A stretch of 64,000 nucleotides of DNA from a virus. The number at the start of each line of letters is the position of its first letter. Within the stretch, counting starts at the first letter, position 1. The notes beneath the pieces were generated by a model, which worked only from the letters and a program-made list of their open reading frames with translations, made no database searches and was not told the DNA's origin. Positions 17,347 through 54,673 of the stretch are shown here, piece by piece. The stretch spans positions 54,302-118,301 of IMG/VR virus record IMGVR_UViG_3300002835_000043; one strand, given 5' to 3'. Made by a program: the position numbers and the translations under genes.

Positions 17347-22455
<5,109 letters not shown>

Positions 22456-22468
22456 CAAAGGAAACCAC

Positions 22469-23236
22469 ATGGGAAACACTTCATTTAATTCAAATTATGG
22501 ATTCGATTTAGGAAATATAAGTAATATATTAATTTCCGGTGCTAGTTCCACAGCAGATCAAGTTTTAGTGTTAAAATCAGATGCTACTGGAAAATTTAGA
22601 TTAGAACCACAAGCATTAAACTCAGTTGGTTCAGCGGATTCAATAACTATAACACCAACTAGTGGTAGTTCTTATTATAAAAAAGAAGTATTTTCTAATT
22701 CAATGACAAACACTACTACATTCGGTACACTAAAAAGTTATAATTTTAATATAGGTACATCAAAAACTAAATTATATCTTACTGTAAAAATGGATCTTAT
22801 GGCACAAGGGACTATTGGATCTGTTTTTCAATATTATCATTTTACAACAGGATATAATATAGTATCAGATAGAACTGGTGCTAGTAACTTTATTTTTAGA
22901 CATATACCAGGTCATTTTTCTTATATTTTTAATAAAGGCAGTGGTGCAAATAATTCTACTATTGCTGCAGTTGGACCAGATAAACAATTTCAAAATTTTG
23001 CATCTATACCAACAGTATCAGAATTGATGTTACAACCAAAATTCTCTACAATAACAACTCCACTAGATTCTACAATAATTGCAAATTATCCAAAGATAAT
23101 ACACAGTATAAATACTGGTAACACAAATAGCACTACAGATGATACTTTGAACTTGACAATTCAAGGAAGAAGTATAAGATCTAGTGAAAACATTGAGTGG
23201 TTTGGTACTGTTGAGTTTTTTGCATCTATAGCATAA
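22469..23236 (+). CDS. Short fibre-like virion protein, hypothetical
   Basis: This 255-aa beta-rich protein has an N-terminus (N-Y-G-F-D-L-G-N-I-S-N-I-L-I-S-G, then A-D-Q-V-L-V-L-K-S-D) that looks like the attachment repeat found at the start of small fibre or tip proteins. The rest is a predicted globular beta domain with many aromatic residues and ends in W-F-G-T-V-E-F-F-A-S. It follows the giant Cys-rich protein by 13 bases, with an AAAGGAAA ribosome-binding site. It is possibly a tip or collar (whisker) protein, since it lies just upstream of the neck genes where T4 carries wac; that is positional inference only. Confidence 0.55.
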   Translation: MGNTSFNSNYGFDLGNISNILISGASSTADQVLVLKSDATGKFRLEPQALNSVGSADSITITPTSGSSYYKKEVFSNSMTNTTTFGTLKSYNFNIGTSKTKLYLTVKMDLMAQGTIGSVFQYYHFTTGYNIVSDRTGASNFIFRHIPGHFSYIFNKGSGANNSTIAAVGPDKQFQNFASIPTVSELMLQPKFSTITTPLDSTIIANYPKIIHSINTGNTNSTTDDTLNLTIQGRSIRSSENIEWFGTVEFFASIA

Positions 23237-23250
23237 AAGGAGATTTAAAA

Positions 23251-23607
23251 ATGAAGGTTAAGTTAGTTGAAGTTTATAATTCTGTTTCTGTCATGAACAA
23301 GATACTAGATGCTGAATTACCAGCATCAGTGGCATTTAAGTTAACAAAGTTACTAAAGTCTTTAAATGATGAGATTAAGTCAATAGAAGACCAAAGAGTT
23401 AAATTGGTATCAAAGCATGGTCAAAAGGATGAAAATGGCTCTGTTTCGGTATCAGAGGCAAATAAAGAAGAATTTATGAAGGAATTTGGAGAATTACTAT
23501 CTACGGAGATCGAAATTCAATGGGAACCAGTTTCTGTTGAAAAATTCGATGGACTCAACTTATCTGCAAATGATTTGTTAAAAGTCGGATTCTTATTCTC
23601 AGAATAA
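23251..23607 (+). CDS. DUF1617-like small phage protein
   Basis: This 118-aa acidic helical protein has an N-terminal half (K-V-K-L-V-E-V-Y-N-S, then L-P-A-S-V-A-F-K-L-T-K-L-L-K, then I-E-D-Q-R-V-K-L-V) that matches my recollection of the DUF1617 pattern, seen mainly in tail-region proteins of siphophages of Gram-positive bacteria. Its function there is unknown. The C-terminal half ends with an acidic strand-rich segment. A clear AAAAGGAGA ribosome-binding site precedes the ATG. It is the last gene before the terminator/late-promoter element ahead of gp13, so it ends the preceding operon. Confidence 0.6.
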   Translation: MKVKLVEVYNSVSVMNKILDAELPASVAFKLTKLLKSLNDEIKSIEDQRVKLVSKHGQKDENGSVSVSEANKEEFMKEFGELLSTEIEIQWEPVSVEKFDGLNLSANDLLKVGFLFSE

Positions 23608-23631
23608 GCATTTTTCTTAAAAACTAAGAAG

Positions 23632-23671
23632 TCTCCTCTTTATAAATAACAGATAAAGAGGAGATTTTTTT
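23632..23671 (+). terminator. Intrinsic terminator overlapping late promoter and gp13 ribosome-binding site
   Basis: A perfect 12-bp inverted repeat (TCTCCTCTTTAT at 23632-23643 and ATAAAGAGGAGA at 23653-23664) with a nine-base loop is followed by seven T residues (23665-23671). This is a textbook rho-independent terminator for the operon ending at 23607. The 3' arm contains GAGGAGA, the only good ribosome-binding site for gp13, whose ATG follows the T run directly. Confidence 0.85.
23641..23648 (+). promoter_or_regulatory. T4-type late promoter for gp13 (TATAAATA)
   Basis: This is an exact match to the T4 late promoter -10 consensus recognised by gp55. It spans the end of the 5' stem arm and the start of the loop of the terminator at 23632-23671. 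Initiation about six bases downstream would give a transcript carrying only the 3' arm, leaving the gp13 ribosome-binding site free. Confidence 0.75.
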
Positions 23672-24496
23672 ATGGCTAAACCAGCCAGCAGAGAACAATT
23701 AAAAGATTTTTGTCTTAGAAAACTGGGTTATCCAGTTATTCAAATAAATGTCGATGATGCCCAAATAGAGGATCGTCTAGACGATGCTTTGCAATTTTTT
23801 GCAGAATATCATTTTGATGGTGTCGAAAAGGTATACATGCGTAAGCAGATTGAACAAAAAGACATAGACAGAGGATATATTGATCTAACAGAAGCAACTA
23901 CAGCAGACCCAGGAGCAACTGTGCCTATCGTGGATGCTCCCGCATTAGATCCAGATGGCAATTCTATCATATCAGTAACAAAGGTATTCCAGTTGTATGA
24001 TACCCTTGGTGGCACTGGTATGTTTGATGCACGCTACCAGATCGCTTTAAACGACTTATACGGTCTTCGCACAAACACCTATAGTCAGTCTTTGATAACA
24101 TATGCAATAACAAGAAGCCACATGCAGATGTTACAAGATATGTTAACTCCGGAGAAGACTTTGGAATTTAGTCGTGTGACAAACAGAATATATGTAAACA
24201 TGGATTGGAAGGGTCAAACATATCTTGGTCAATATATGTTATTCGAAGCATACAAGATATTGAATCCAGAAGCATATACTGAAATATACAACGATAGAAC
24301 ATTAAAACTTTATACTACCGCTCTTATTAAACAACAATGGGGAGCAAATATGATGAAGTTTGGTGGTATGGAGTTACCGGGTGGAATTGTTCTGAATGGT
24401 GCTGAAATATTCCAAGAAGCAACATCAGAAGTACAAAAATTAGAAAACGAAATGCAATCTAAGTGGGAACTTCCTCCTCAATTCTTTGTAGGATAA
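23672..24496 (+). CDS. 13: Neck protein gp13
   Basis: At 274 aa (T4 gp13 is 309 aa), this matches gp13 from the N-terminal LKDFCLRKLGYPVIQINVDD through D-D-A-L-Q-F-F-A-E-Y-H-F-D-G and the central MDWKGQTYLGQYMLFEAYK block to the end. In T4, gp13 and gp14 form the neck that seals the filled head and joins it to the tail. The ATG follows a seven-T run and uses the GAGGAGA of the terminator's 3' arm as its ribosome-binding site. gp14 begins two bases after its stop. It is mainly helical, with no oddity except its unusual leader. Confidence 0.93.
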   Translation: MAKPASREQLKDFCLRKLGYPVIQINVDDAQIEDRLDDALQFFAEYHFDGVEKVYMRKQIEQKDIDRGYIDLTEATTADPGATVPIVDAPALDPDGNSIISVTKVFQLYDTLGGTGMFDARYQIALNDLYGLRTNTYSQSLITYAITRSHMQMLQDMLTPEKTLEFSRVTNRIYVNMDWKGQTYLGQYMLFEAYKILNPEAYTEIYNDRTLKLYTTALIKQQWGANMMKFGGMELPGGIVLNGAEIFQEATSEVQKLENEMQSKWELPPQFFVG

Positions 24497-24497
24497 A

Positions 24498-25199
24498 ATG
24501 GCAACAAATCCATATTTTAAAAATCAAGGTTATAAACCTACTCAAAATCTGATAGAGGATTTATCAGAAGAGGCTATCAAAGTAAATGGTATTGATGTTG
24601 TTTATATTATAAAAACAACAGATAAAGTTGACCAGTTATTTGGTGATAATCAACATGGCAAACTCAAAAATTCTTTTGGAATTGAAATGTATTTAAAGAA
24701 TGCAAAGGGATTTGAGGGAGAAAGAGATATAGTAAATAAATTTGGTATGGAAGTTAAAGATAATGTTACTTTGATTGTATCTAAGAAAAGATTTAGAGAA
24801 GAATCTTTCAAACTACCACAATTAACTGGTCGTTTATACCCAATGAATAGACCAATTGAAGGTGATTTGATTTACTTGCCACTTGCACAAACATCTGACA
24901 ACTTATATGAAATTAAGTTTGTTGAAAATGAAGATGTTCTTTATCAACAAGGCGATTACTACACATTTAGACTAGATTGTGAACTATATAAGTACTCTAT
25001 GGAAGATATTAATACAGGATTCAGTAAGATTGATGATATCAAATCTGAATTGGTACAAGAAGTCGATGTTGATGGTGACGGTATAGCAGATTATATTATG
25101 GATAAGAAAAAGATAAATGACAATACCCAGATTCAAAATGAAGCAAATGATATTATAGATTTTACCGAGAAAGATCCATTCTCTGAGGGTAATTACTGA
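24498..25199 (+). CDS. 14: Neck protein gp14
   Basis: At 233 aa (T4 gp14 is 256 aa), it has the gp14 hallmarks: NPYFKNQGYKPTQNLIEDL at the N-terminus, the strand L-P-Q-L-T-G-R-L-Y-P-M-N-R-P-I-E-G-D-L-I-Y, and an acidic C-terminus ending in D-P-F-S-E-G. It partners gp13 in the head-completion/neck complex and contacts the portal. It starts two bases after gp13 and overlaps gp15 by one base (TGATG), so the three neck genes are translationally coupled. Confidence 0.92.
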   Translation: MATNPYFKNQGYKPTQNLIEDLSEEAIKVNGIDVVYIIKTTDKVDQLFGDNQHGKLKNSFGIEMYLKNAKGFEGERDIVNKFGMEVKDNVTLIVSKKRFREESFKLPQLTGRLYPMNRPIEGDLIYLPLAQTSDNLYEIKFVENEDVLYQQGDYYTFRLDCELYKYSMEDINTGFSKIDDIKSELVQEVDVDGDGIADYIMDKKKINDNTQIQNEANDIIDFTEKDPFSEGNY

Positions 25200-25864
25200 T
25201 GTTTACAAATTTCTATCATGGCACTATAAGAAAAATGGTGACTGCCTTCGGCACCTTATTTAATAACATTTATATCGTAAGAAACGATGGAACTACCACA
25301 AAGAAAATAAAAGTCCCACTGATTTATTCTCCAAAAGAAAAGTTTGTTCATCGTTTAAATTTAGATGTAGATAAGACAATGGTTCAAACTATTCTTCCTA
25401 GAATGGGATTTTCGATAACAAGTATGTCATATGATGCTGACAGAAAGAAAAATTCATTAAATAAAAGATGGAAACAAGAAGTCGGCACTAATGATGATAT
25501 AACCTTTCAATATCGCTATGAAGATGTTCCATATAATATAGATTTTGAATTATACATTTATGCAAGAAACATCGATGACGGTCTACAAGTTGTAGAACAA
25601 ATATTACCATTCTTTACTCCAGATTTTACAATAACAATAAAACCAAAAGTATTGGACAACACTTTAGAAAAAGTAGATATTCCAATAATATTAAATCAAA
25701 TTACACCAAACGAAGTATATGATCAGAGTTTTTCTGAAGAAACAAGAATGTTAACTTGGGATTTGCAATTTACCGCTAAAGCAAATCTATATGGTCCGGT
25801 TAGAAATTCTTCTAGTATAATTAAAGATGTTAAGGTTAATCTTTTTGATTTCGATGAGGTCTAA
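25199..25864 (+). CDS. 15: Tail completion/sheath stabiliser protein gp15
   Basis: At 221 aa (T4 gp15 is 272 aa), diagnostic blocks are Y-H-G-T-I-R-K-M-V-T-A-F-G-T-L-F-N-N-I near the N-terminus, the V-P-L-I-Y-S-P-K-E-K-F strand, and I-L-P-R-M-G-F. In T4, gp15 forms the hexameric ring on top of the assembled tail that interacts with gp14 when the head docks. ATG overlaps the gp14 stop. In T4 gp16 would follow, but here about 11 kb of adhesion genes intervene. Confidence 0.92.
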   Translation: MFTNFYHGTIRKMVTAFGTLFNNIYIVRNDGTTTKKIKVPLIYSPKEKFVHRLNLDVDKTMVQTILPRMGFSITSMSYDADRKKNSLNKRWKQEVGTNDDITFQYRYEDVPYNIDFELYIYARNIDDGLQVVEQILPFFTPDFTITIKPKVLDNTLEKVDIPIILNQITPNEVYDQSFSEETRMLTWDLQFTAKANLYGPVRNSSSIIKDVKVNLFDFDEV

Positions 25865-25866
25865 AT

Positions 25867-26040
25867 ATGGCATATAAGAAATACGCTTCAATAAGAGTTA
25901 GACCTGTTATTTTTGAAAAAGATACGAATGGTGATTTTATACTAGATACAAATAACGATAAGATAATTTTAGTTCAACCTAATAATGTAAATTCAACAGA
26001 ACCATACGACTACTTAGTAGAAATAGAGGAATTTGAATAA
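25867..26040 (+). CDS. Small hypothetical protein between gp15 and fibre
   Basis: This 57-aa protein begins M-A-Y-K-K-Y-A-S-I-R-V-R-P-V-I-F-E-K and ends in an acidic E-E-F-E. It starts two bases after gp15 and its TAA overlaps the ATG of the fibronectin-III protein (TAATG), so it is in the same translation chain and very likely real. Predicted strands and acidity suggest a small structural or attachment protein. I do not recognise a family. Confidence 0.7.
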   Translation: MAYKKYASIRVRPVIFEKDTNGDFILDTNNDKIILVQPNNVNSTEPYDYLVEIEEFE

Positions 26041-29000
26041 TGTCACAAAGAGATCAATTTGCACCCGGTGTTGGTTCTGGAATTTATGGTTCAGGAGAAC
26101 CTGTCGGTAATATAGTTTTTCAATTTAGTGATATTCCATCTCCTCCTACAAATTTAATCGCCTCTAGTAATTTATATACAGACGGTATTGAATTACAATG
26201 GCAACCAAGTGAAAAGGCAGTTTTTTATAAAATTTATAGAGATTTTAATTTTTTAATAGAATTAAATAATTTAACATTAAATACAAATAATACATTTACA
26301 TACAAGGACACAAATGTAGAAGAAGGAAAAATTTATACTTATTCAGTTAGTGGAATTAATAATTCTGGAGAAAGTCAACAAAGTAACACGGATACTGGTT
26401 CTATAAAAATTAATGGTGTTCAAAATTTAACAGCATCACAAACATTACAAAGTACTATAAATTTGTCATGGGATTCTAATCCTAATGCAGTAAATTATAT
26501 TGTTTATAGAGGAAATACTACAAATTTAGAAAATATGATAATTTTGGGAATAACTTCATCAAATTCTTTTATAGATTCATCAGATCTTATATATGGTAAT
26601 ATTTATTACTATAGAATAATACCGGTATCGGGGGATGGTAATGGTATAGAAAGTTCACACACTTCTGGGTTTTTATTCGTTAATAAACCAACCTGTCCAT
26701 CAATAAATGTAAGTTATGGAACATATACAGATAAAATAATATTATCATGGAATTCTGTTCCAACTGCAACAAATTATAGAGTGTATAAAAATGGTATACA
26801 AATACACAATACCACAGAACTAACATACACAGATACATCTATACAACAAGGAATAGAATATCAATATCTAGTAATATCAGAAAATCAAGCAGGACTATGT
26901 ACAGATACAAATGATAATTATGAAATAGGTTGGGCAAAATTATCCCCACCACAATCACTAACTGCTGCTGATGGACAAGATGAAAAAAATATTACTCTGA
27001 GTTGGTCTTCTGTTCAAAATGCAACACATTATAATATTTATAGAAGACCTGCAATTATTGGTGTACCATATTCATTAATCGATTCTGTTCAAACTTTTAA
27101 TTACCAAGATACAAATACTGATTTAGTCTATGGAACTACTTATGTTTATAAAATTCGTGCTGCGTGTCATATAAACGGTATAGAAAAAGAAAGCGCCGAT
27201 AGTAATGAAGACACTGGTATCTTAAAAAACCCAATACCAAATGCACCTGTTATTGTTGCATCAAATGGTGATTATGATAATAAAATTTCTATATCTTGGA
27301 ATCCAGTTCCAAATGCTTCTGTCTATATTGTTTATAGAGATTCAAATCAAATTGCAGTAGTAACTGATACTTTTTATGATGATATTGATCCATCAGTATC
27401 TTCTTGTACAAATTATACTTATAGAGTAAAAGCAAAAAATATGTTCGGGTTTGAGAGTTCTTTTTCAAATTCAGATATTGGTATTAAAAAATTACAAACA
27501 CCATCTGGCTTAGTTGCGAGCGATTCACAATTTACCGGAAAAATTTATGTGTCATGGAATTCTGTTCCAGATGCTTTAAATTATACTTTATATAGATCAC
27601 TATTTAATACCGAAGCAAGCATGGTTCCTCTCGTAACAACTTCAACACCATTTTATGATGATACAAACACCGATTTAGTTTATGAAACCACATATTATTA
27701 TGCAGTAAAAGCAAATTGTATTTGTGCTCTTTGCTCTACAAATGGTGAAACTACAGCATTTAGTAATATCGATTCTGGTGTGTTAAAAAACATGTCAACA
27801 CAATTTACTCCTCCAAGTGCACCAACCACACTCACAATTGCATCACCAAATACTACTTCTATATTATTAACTTGGTCACCAGTTACTGCTGCAACTCTTT
27901 ATAAAATTTATAGAGATGGAATACAAGTAGGAATAACTCTTGCAGGAACAACCACATATACAGATACACCAACACCAGGTATTCAGTACACTTACACTGT
28001 AAAGGCACAGAATAGTGATGGTGAAAGTTCTTCATCACCATCTGCTACTGGTTATATTATATTAACAACACCAACTAGTTTTGTAGCAACAAAAAATGAA
28101 AATTCCACAGAATCTTATATTAAATTAACATGGTCTGCTGTTCCCGGTGCAACAAGTTACACAATTTTTAGAGGAATAAGTTCGAGCACACTATCACAAA
28201 TAGATACAAGTTATACTACGGAATATTTTGATACAAATACAGATTTATCATATAATACAATTTATTACTATCGAATAAAAGCAAATTCATCTTTTGCAAG
28301 TGCAGCAAGTTCACTTAGTAATATAAACAGTTCTTCTACTGGAATTTTAAAATCTCCCCCTCCAACTAATTTTAATTTAAATTCTATAAGTTCAATTTAC
28401 ACAGATAAAGTAATTATAACTTGGAATTCATCGCAATATGCATATGGTGGCTATTCTGTAAATAGAGATGGAATACCATTAACAAACGGATATTCTTCAT
28501 CTAATTTTTTAACACATAGTAATACATTTCAACTAGGACAAACGGATTGGATTTTGTATAATAATTCAACAATTAATTCTAGTCCACAAATTCCTATGCC
28601 AAATGATGATACAAATGGTGAATATGGTAAAATATTATTATTATCTTCATCAAAAACCCAAAATAACGGTATATACCAAGTAATAAAAAATGTAGCAAAT
28701 TCAACAATATACACGCTTTCTTGCTATGTTAGATCTATTACTGACACAGCAAAATTTAGAATGAGTTATTTTAATGGTGGTGTAAGTAGTTTTTCAAATG
28801 AATTTATAGCCAACACAACACCAACGAGATTTACTTTTACATTTACAACTACTACAAATAATATAACATCAAATATTGCAATTGGAAATAATTTTACTAC
28901 ATCTGGTGGAACTACATTTTGGGAAGATGGTAGTATTGTAATATGGGGTGCTCAATTAGAAAAGGGTTCTGTTGCAACTACATTAATTTCAACAACAACA

Positions 29001-29840
29001 GCACCAGTCACATCAACGACATATACAGATACAACAGCAACATATGGAACCAACCATTCATATAGTGTAACTGCTTTGAATAATATAACATCAACAAACA
29101 GTAGTAATTCTGTAAATGGATCTCTAAAATTATTAGCACCAACTTTAACTTCTGTAACAAATAATTTAACAACAAAAGTAACTTTAAATTGGAGTTCTAT
29201 TTCTGGTGCATCTACATATAAAGTTTATAGAGGAACAACTAATGATACTTCTTCTATGTCTCTTTTATCTAGTGGTATTTCCACTACTTCATATGATGAT
29301 ACAACTGCTACTGCTGGAACTACTTATTACTATTCAATAAAAGCCACAACATCATTTGGTACTGATAGTGATTTTGGTAATGTGGTTTCTGGTAGTAAAG
29401 TATTACAGGCAGTACAACCTGGAGATATTTTTGAAAATTATTTTAGCCATAATAAATATGATTATACAAATGTAACATTAACAGATTCGAGTAATAACAA
29501 TGTTACATTCAATCATTTTACACATGAATCTTTTTATAATCCAATGGCAGCAATAAATTGGAATTCTTTACAGAGAGACAGAGATAATAGATATTCAAAA
29601 CAAATATTTTATTCAAATAAGTTATCAAGTACAAATAATGAAGTAAATTATCTTGAAAGAATAATAGTTAACAATTTTAGCAATACCGCAAATGGATTTA
29701 GTGGTACTAAATTATATAAAAATTTTGATGTATATAGAGGAGAAGGAGACTCGCAATATGAAGACGACATTATTTGTACTTTTCCAAATTATACGGAATT
29801 ATTAATTAAAACAGTTGAACCAATTTTACAACCTAAATAA
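26040..29840 (+). CDS. Multi-fibronectin-III tail fibre with nested CBM-like domain
   Basis: This 1266-aa protein has a short Gly-rich N-terminal segment, then about ten tandem fibronectin type III domains of ~90 residues. Each shows the pattern I-x-L-x-W, then Y-x-I/V-Y-R, then Y-x-D-T, then Y-Y-Y-x-V/I-K-A. In the ninth domain the chain leaves after Y-S-V-N-R-D-G-I-P-L at about residue 815 and returns at T-T-Y-T-D-T near residue 990. Between them lies a separate ~170-residue carbohydrate-binding-like domain closing with I-V-I-W-G-A-Q-L-E-K-G. The final ~130 residues are unrelated and Asn/Tyr-rich. FnIII arrays on phage virions usually aid weak surface binding. It starts within TAATG after the small gene upstream and lies between gp15 and gp16. 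Confidence 0.8.
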   Translation: MSQRDQFAPGVGSGIYGSGEPVGNIVFQFSDIPSPPTNLIASSNLYTDGIELQWQPSEKAVFYKIYRDFNFLIELNNLTLNTNNTFTYKDTNVEEGKIYTYSVSGINNSGESQQSNTDTGSIKINGVQNLTASQTLQSTINLSWDSNPNAVNYIVYRGNTTNLENMIILGITSSNSFIDSSDLIYGNIYYYRIIPVSGDGNGIESSHTSGFLFVNKPTCPSINVSYGTYTDKIILSWNSVPTATNYRVYKNGIQIHNTTELTYTDTSIQQGIEYQYLVISENQAGLCTDTNDNYEIGWAKLSPPQSLTAADGQDEKNITLSWSSVQNATHYNIYRRPAIIGVPYSLIDSVQTFNYQDTNTDLVYGTTYVYKIRAACHINGIEKESADSNEDTGILKNPIPNAPVIVASNGDYDNKISISWNPVPNASVYIVYRDSNQIAVVTDTFYDDIDPSVSSCTNYTYRVKAKNMFGFESSFSNSDIGIKKLQTPSGLVASDSQFTGKIYVSWNSVPDALNYTLYRSLFNTEASMVPLVTTSTPFYDDTNTDLVYETTYYYAVKANCICALCSTNGETTAFSNIDSGVLKNMSTQFTPPSAPTTLTIASPNTTSILLTWSPVTAATLYKIYRDGIQVGITLAGTTTYTDTPTPGIQYTYTVKAQNSDGESSSSPSATGYIILTTPTSFVATKNENSTESYIKLTWSAVPGATSYTIFRGISSSTLSQIDTSYTTEYFDTNTDLSYNTIYYYRIKANSSFASAASSLSNINSSSTGILKSPPPTNFNLNSISSIYTDKVIITWNSSQYAYGGYSVNRDGIPLTNGYSSSNFLTHSNTFQLGQTDWILYNNSTINSSPQIPMPNDDTNGEYGKILLLSSSKTQNNGIYQVIKNVANSTIYTLSCYVRSITDTAKFRMSYFNGGVSSFSNEFIANTTPTRFTFTFTTTTNNITSNIAIGNNFTTSGGTTFWEDGSIVIWGAQLEKGSVATTLISTTTAPVTSTTYTDTTATYGTNHSYSVTALNNITSTNSSNSVNGSLKLLAPTLTSVTNNLTTKVTLNWSSISGASTYKVYRGTTNDTSSMSLLSSGISTTSYDDTTATAGTTYYYSIKATTSFGTDSDFGNVVSGSKVLQAVQPGDIFENYFSHNKYDYTNVTLTDSSNNNVTFNHFTHESFYNPMAAINWNSLQRDRDNRYSKQIFYSNKLSSTNNEVNYLERIIVNNFSNTANGFSGTKLYKNFDVYRGEGDSQYEDDIICTFPNYTELLIKTVEPILQPK

Positions 29841-54077: not shown

Positions 54078-54673
54078 ACATATTTGTATTGGATAAGAAT
54101 CCAACAACAGCAGCGGAATACATGTGTGACAAACACATCGTAAAAATGATCCTAGAGAGTTGTCAATTACTTTCTACTGCTCATCGTGTATTAGACGGTA
54201 AAAAGGTGGAAAGGCAGACCAAGAACGGTAGACGCTATACTTATTACATGTTAGAGGATTCTAAAGTAGATTCTTACATCTATAAGTCTACAATGATCAA
54301 TCATCCATGCACAATTTGGACTAGACAATCAACTCGTAACTATGATTGGTTGTGCAAGCACACCCTTGCTTTATGTGAACAATACACAAAGCGTTATGGT
54401 AAGACACATGTATCTACGCAATTGGCAGAGTGGTTGTTTAAACACCCACCTACTGGTTTAAAGATTGATAGTCTTACTCCATTTGCTCAAGCAATGCCAG
54501 ACCAGTATAAGCACCAAGATGCAATTAAAGCATATAGGGATTATTATATTTTTGAAAAATCTAGGTTTGCCAAATGGAAACTGGGAAACACCCCTGAGTG
54601 GTATTTGGAAGGACTCAAAGAAAATTCTTTACTAAATAGTAAAGAGGAAACGATAAATGGAGCAACCGTCTGA
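54074..54673 (+). CDS. Conserved phage protein of unknown function (gp47-gp46 interval)
   Basis: This 199-aa protein begins M-N-I-F-V-L-D-K-N-P-T-T-A-A-E-Y-M-C-D-K-H-I-V-K-M-I, a signature I recall from hypothetical proteins in many marine phages and some bacteria. The later H-P-C-T-I-W-T-R-Q-S-T-R-N-Y-D-W-L and the W-Y pair near the C-terminus (P-E-W-Y) are typical too. Conserved His, Asp, Glu, Arg and Trp suggest a nucleic-acid enzyme, and I considered a DNA glycosylase relation, but no catalytic motif is certain. It overlaps gp47 by four bases and the following Arg-rich gene by 17, within the recombination operon. Confidence 0.65.
   Translation: MNIFVLDKNPTTAAEYMCDKHIVKMILESCQLLSTAHRVLDGKKVERQTKNGRRYTYYMLEDSKVDSYIYKSTMINHPCTIWTRQSTRNYDWLCKHTLALCEQYTKRYGKTHVSTQLAEWLFKHPPTGLKIDSLTPFAQAMPDQYKHQDAIKAYRDYYIFEKSRFAKWKLGNTPEWYLEGLKENSLLNSKEETINGATV

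Follow-up and report, generated by a model that had tools for sequence, protein, structure and literature searches.

In phage T4, early or read-through RNA of genes e and soc folds over the ribosome-binding site (RBS), and late RNA, which starts from a promoter at the 5' arm of the fold and does not contain that arm, is translated; for gene e, the effect on translation has been shown by experiment (PMC3014915, PMC2988022). Likewise, the T4 genes for I-TevI, I-TevII and I-TevIII, T4 segB, and mobE of Aeh1 carry a hairpin over the RBS, and their late RNA is too short to form the inhibitory structure (PMC2988022). The sections of these two papers drawn on here do not mention gene 13 in connection with such hairpins, nor do they describe a U7 terminator tail for e and soc. 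The T4 late box itself begins at -13, about one helical turn upstream of the transcript start (PMC2988020).

Here, we describe an element of this kind upstream of the gene for a gp13-type neck protein. The window that we analyzed is a stretch of 64,000 nucleotides that runs from base 54302 to base 118301 of a virus record 118,301 bp long, for which a first megablast of known phages gave no match. A perfect 12-bp hairpin, read directly from the sequence at window positions 23632-23664, lies just 5' of gp13, and its components are listed in Table 1.

Table 1. Window coordinates of the hairpin element and of the genes on either side of it
Feature	Position	Strand	Basis and remarks
Upstream gene, 118 aa	23251..23607	+	PHROG 1401; end of the operon from which transcription would run on into gp13
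Hairpin 5' arm (anti-Shine-Dalgarno arm) TCTCCTCTTTAT	23632..23643	+	Perfect complement of 23653-23664; the two arms covary among relatives
T4-type late promoter box TATAAATA	23641..23648	+	Sequence; spans 5' arm and loop
Hairpin loop AAATAACAG, 9 nt	23644..23652	+	Folding
Hairpin 3' arm ATAAAGAGGAGA	23653..23664	+	Sequence and folding; holds the gp13 Shine-Dalgarno sequence GAGGAG, 23658-23663
Predicted late transcript start	23654	+	First base of the box plus 13 nt, so that the box occupies -13 to -6; derived by analogy with T4 late promoters (PMC2988020)
T7 run, terminator-like U tract	23665..23671	+	Sequence; between stem and ATG
gp13-type neck protein/head-tail adaptor Ad2, 274 aa	23672..24496	+	PHROG 211, E 2.8e-37; ATG at 23672
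gp14-type head closure Hc2	24498..25199	+	PHROG 460/679, E about 1e-58; starts 1 nt past the gp13 stop
gp15-type tail sheath stabilizer	25199..25864	+	PHROG 227, E 1.2e-69; start overlaps the gp14 stop

The first-pass annotation had described a perfect 12-bp stem with a T run, a late box lying across the 5' arm and the loop, and an RBS within the 3' arm, and each of these is directly visible in the sequence. The segment 23632-23671 folds at -15.2 kcal/mol, against -5.5 ± 2.2 kcal/mol for shuffled versions, none of which (0 of 200) folded as well, and in a context of 121 nt the hairpin has a z score of -4.65. A search of window positions 22000-26000 against Rfam gave no match up to E = 1. The element was also missed by our terminator scan, because that scan allows loops of 3 to 8 nt and the loop here has 9. 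That the arms pair merely by chance in AT-rich DNA is almost inconceivable: the box TATAAATA alone does occur at its expected frequency (12 copies in the window versus 11.2 expected), but the shuffles, together with the clade-wide conservation and the covariation described below, reject this explanation. Hence, what goes beyond chance is the conserved position of the late box, not the occurrence of TATAAATA on its own.

We consider it likely that the element is a cis-acting timing switch for gp13, in which a late promoter and a ribosome site share one hairpin. By the T4 box geometry, the late transcript is predicted to start at the second base of the 3' arm; since the 5' arm ends at 23643, such an RNA would lack this arm entirely and would have a gp13 leader of 18 nt. 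RNA that reads in from the fibre operon would carry both arms, so that the hairpin would hide the Shine-Dalgarno (SD) sequence, and in the subclade of the window the hairpin and its U7 tract should also end much of the read-in transcription. RNA polymerase directed by gp55, in turn, would start at TATAAATA inside the element. Because the entire 5' arm is absent from the resulting RNA, neither the lock on the RBS nor the terminator would form, and gp13 could be translated from its short leader. In other words, probably only late transcripts are translated well. The contig encodes a late sigma factor gp55 (57% identity to that of Pelagibacter phage Mosig; E 2e-48) and a homologue of the gp45 clamp (41%; E 2e-46), and it has a weak match to gp33 (E 7e-6). 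With the T4 leaders, the locus thus has in common a stable hairpin that pairs with the SD, a box placed such that the predicted start removes the 5' arm, and genes for gp55 and gp45.

The calculated accessibility of the SD is consistent with this switch. In the window, the cost of opening the SD falls from 12.9 kcal/mol with the 5' arm to 1.0 kcal/mol without it, and the same calculation gave a lower cost in the late RNA for all 43 distinct hairpins. The probability that the SD is unpaired is about 0.000 in the read-through RNA. A point against the switch is that in the late RNA of the window it is 0.23, as the SD still pairs weakly with the coding sequence. The earlier proposal that the SD is hidden in read-through RNA and exposed in RNA from the internal late promoter thereby gains support from computation as well as from the comparison of relatives, which concerns both the covariation of the stem and the retention of the design in 43 of 44 upstream regions, and from the presence of gp55 and gp45 genes on the contig.

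A protein search with gp13 yielded 80 viral contigs, the upstream regions of which display the same design with differing stem sequences, and after three further searches gp13 was placed in 280 loci. Conservation of the late box and hairpin among relatives had been set beforehand as a test of the proposal, and it was borne out: among the 44 distinct sequences upstream of gp13 in the clade, 43 have a late box (TAAATA core) 5' of the SD together with a hairpin. In these 43, starting the RNA at the box lowers the SD opening cost by roughly 4 kcal/mol or more (median, 11.7 kcal/mol); the weakest drop, 3.6 kcal/mol, belongs to L038, one of a pair of near-identical loci, which was entered as a hairpin in the tree labels by hand. 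The SD lies in a hairpin arm in every clade member with box and hairpin, and in all class 1 hairpins the 5' arm ends upstream of the predicted start. Only L063 has neither box nor hairpin, and with an identity of 51% it is an outlier of the clade. In the tree, a single starred branch (SH-aLRT, 99) unites the 38 non-redundant hairpin members, and L063 is adjacent to it. On comparison of these regions, the conserved core of the element is the hairpin, the late box and the SD together. The upstream region of gp13 in L080 (about 1840-1953) contains two late-box/hairpin units in tandem.

Furthermore, the stem shows the co-varying bases that the first-pass annotation had predicted for related phages. 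MAFFT applied to whole upstream regions could not align stems of unequal length; the SD therefore served as the anchor for the arms, and a fixed linker was placed between them. Across the 25 distinct sequences aligned in this way, 90.7% of the cells are paired, a share that is inflated because the stems were chosen by a scanner that rewards pairing, a bias against which the shuffle, slide and swap controls guard only in part; it is the comparison with these controls that carries weight. In the same alignment, 10 of the 12 pairs are altered on both sides and G-U pairs are present. The number of cells with changes on both sides is 67, versus 23.6 in shuffles; the covariation score is 0.641, versus 0.242 when shuffled and 0.08 to 0.24 when slid; and arms paired with their own partners score 26.4, versus 5.6 for swapped arms.

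This pattern bears on the question of whether the inverted repeat acts as DNA, either as the operator of a dimeric repressor or as a part of the promoter. The arms are symmetric about the late box, and I-TevI is known to bind an operator that covers its own late promoter (PMC2988022). However, outside the SD and its complement the arms diverge widely while pairing is kept, with G-U pairs among the replacements, a pattern that RNA would be expected to show but an invariant binding site for a protein would not; moreover, the class 2 hairpin of marine relatives sits 3' of the box. We therefore disfavor a DNA operator, above all in view of the covariation with its G-U pairs, and regard this explanation as highly improbable. 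Stable hairpins between operons often serve as elements of RNA processing or stability, and the hairpin might conceivably be a site for RNase III or RNase E, or protect the 3' end of the fibre mRNA, with the hiding of the SD being incidental. Such a role would leave unexplained why a late box lies within or just 5' of the hairpin, why the predicted start falls past the 5' arm and why the tie to the SD has lasted, and we believe it to be very unlikely.

The element resembles an intrinsic (Rho-independent) terminator in that U7 directly follows a stable stem, both in the window and in the 13 relatives nearest to it; it differs in that a promoter and an SD are built into the stem and in that its core is kept where the U run is absent. 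Possibly, then, it is mainly the intrinsic terminator of the fibre operon, and promoter and SD overlap it owing to the short intergenic space. The T7 run directly follows the 12-bp stem in the window and is invariant in all 13 nearest relatives, in which the flank just 5' of the hairpin comprises 10 different sequences, and it is the sole run of at least 6 T before the ATG among the 72 open reading frames with SD and ATG on this contig and strand. Across the clade, however, at least 5 T within the 8 nt after the SD arm were found in only 18 of the 44 distinct regions and 0 or 1 T in 20, although box and hairpin are present in 43. Moreover, the SD lies in an arm in each case, and the predicted start falls beyond the 5' arm. 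A terminator as the main function is thus rejected for the conserved core, over half of the clade being without a U run, and is on the whole an unlikely account of the element. The termination claimed by the first-pass annotation holds up for the subclade of the window and for a few other members with shorter U runs, but not for much of the clade, which keeps hairpin, box and SD without the run. For this reason, termination is best read as a layer that appears to have been added in some subclades and not as the core function. Where it exists, a late start inside the element would bypass it, since the stem cannot form without the 5' arm.

A stem-based scan of 1.83 Mb of loci reached the threshold solely before gp13, a score of 20 being attained by 57 of 166 distinct gp13 sites versus none of 186 other late-box sites. 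Likewise, the cost of opening the SD fell by 4 kcal/mol for just 1 of 39 other late-box genes in the loci of the clade. A shuffle limited to the 30 nt 5' of the box is a poor control here because class 2 hairpins sit 3' of the box. In a ranking of genes with SD and ATG in G000, Mosig and four relative records, gp13 was the gene with the most strongly hidden SD in G000, G001, G003 and G004. The exception is G002, a 77.8-kb relative contig on which late-box hairpins also precede a fibre-like gene of 478 aa and the gene for a NUMOD4/HNH endonuclease, and the device is therefore not strictly limited to gp13. The first of these genes (L308:7938-9374, - strand) encodes a glycine-rich, collagen-like fibre, and its late-box hairpin over the SD (GCCTTCTATAAATAACAAAAGTAGGAGGC) has an opening cost of 10.6 kcal/mol. 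The second (L306:3299-3748, - strand) encodes a homing endonuclease; its SD is hidden by a hairpin (TCTCCTAAATATG...TGTTTAGGAGA) that is accompanied by a late-like box, an arrangement known from T4/Aeh1 mobE.

Outside the clade, hairpins of a second geometry (class 2) occur in marine relatives: the box immediately precedes the hairpin, and the start still removes most of the 5' arm. The opening-cost criterion was passed by 11 of 33 distinct upstream regions with a box in the marine set and by 12 of 58 in the pelagiphage-type set, where calls resting on this threshold may in part be due to chance, and by none of 3 in another freshwater clade. The Mosig-like phages L192, L193 and L194 have an 18-pair hairpin before gp13, with the late box across the 5' arm, a 4-nt loop and a stem sequence unlike that of the window. 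In Pelagibacter phage Mosig itself, a possible weak stem of about 8 bp before gp13 was noticed by eye. A late box precedes gp13 in several of the named T4-like phages and marine cyanophages; apart from the possible Mosig stem, no comparable SD-hiding hairpin was seen there in the seven named phages inspected. As a further point against the switch, other T4-type phages express gp13 without such an element. Relatives without hairpin or box had been named beforehand as evidence against the proposal. Within the clade they are absent except for the outlier L063, whereas outside it T4, the cyanophages examined and the other freshwater clade are of this kind. The hairpin label needs at least 9 changes on the starred branches of the tree, which points to several gains or losses, although some of the pelagiphage calls may be due to chance.

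Tentatively, and with rather more doubt than conviction, we suggest that the element might form a double gate that terminates read-through RNA and locks the translation of those transcripts that escape, with both gates defeated at once by the internal late start because the 5' arm is never made. Freshwater and marine T4-type phages might have arrived at this solution, or rebuilt it, several times in front of gp13, with which the neck module begins; the geometry with the box 5' of the hairpin would be one of these cases.

The genes directly 5' of the element are on the same strand as gp13, and the stop codon of the 118-aa gene ends 24 nt before the hairpin. By appearance these upstream genes are structural, and their own transcription may be late, which makes it ambiguous which RNAs need silencing and counts against the switch. 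Directly upstream, in the same operon, a 1702-aa cysteine-rich protein is encoded at 17347-22455, with a stretch of RCC1-like repeats (Pfam match below the cut-off). On the downstream side, gp14 and gp15 may depend on the element through translational coupling, as suggested by the 1-nt gap after gp13 and the overlapping start of gp15. Between gp15 and another large protein lies a gene (26040-29840) for a 1266-aa protein with fibronectin type III repeats and a match resembling the GH85 C terminus.

In conclusion, the mechanism, judged by analogy, is one already known from T4 (e, soc, I-TevI and mobE), and what differs here is its target gp13, its conservation throughout a clade and the U run of a subclade. 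Like the leaders of e and soc, the element has a fold that hides the RBS and would be undone by a late promoter at the 5' arm. Those leaders, however, serve lysis and head-decoration genes whereas gp13 is a neck gene, the effect on translation is here only predicted, and the window has the U7 tail. Similarly, the T4 and Aeh1 endonuclease hairpins combine an RBS hairpin with a late promoter, and the NUMOD4/HNH hairpin of G002 is similar to them, but they guard mobile genes, whereas here a virion gene is concerned and the element is conserved across the clade.

In summary, our study adds the head-tail connector gene of a group of uncultivated T4-type phages, with evidence from covariation, to the few T4 genes from which this regulatory trick is known. 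The element offers a sequence signature by which late transcription units might be annotated in T4-type phages that cannot be cultivated. Of the five clade contigs that were ranked, four have no start site hidden more strongly than that of gp13. The findings also suggest, although they do not establish, that making the neck protein at the wrong time is costly.
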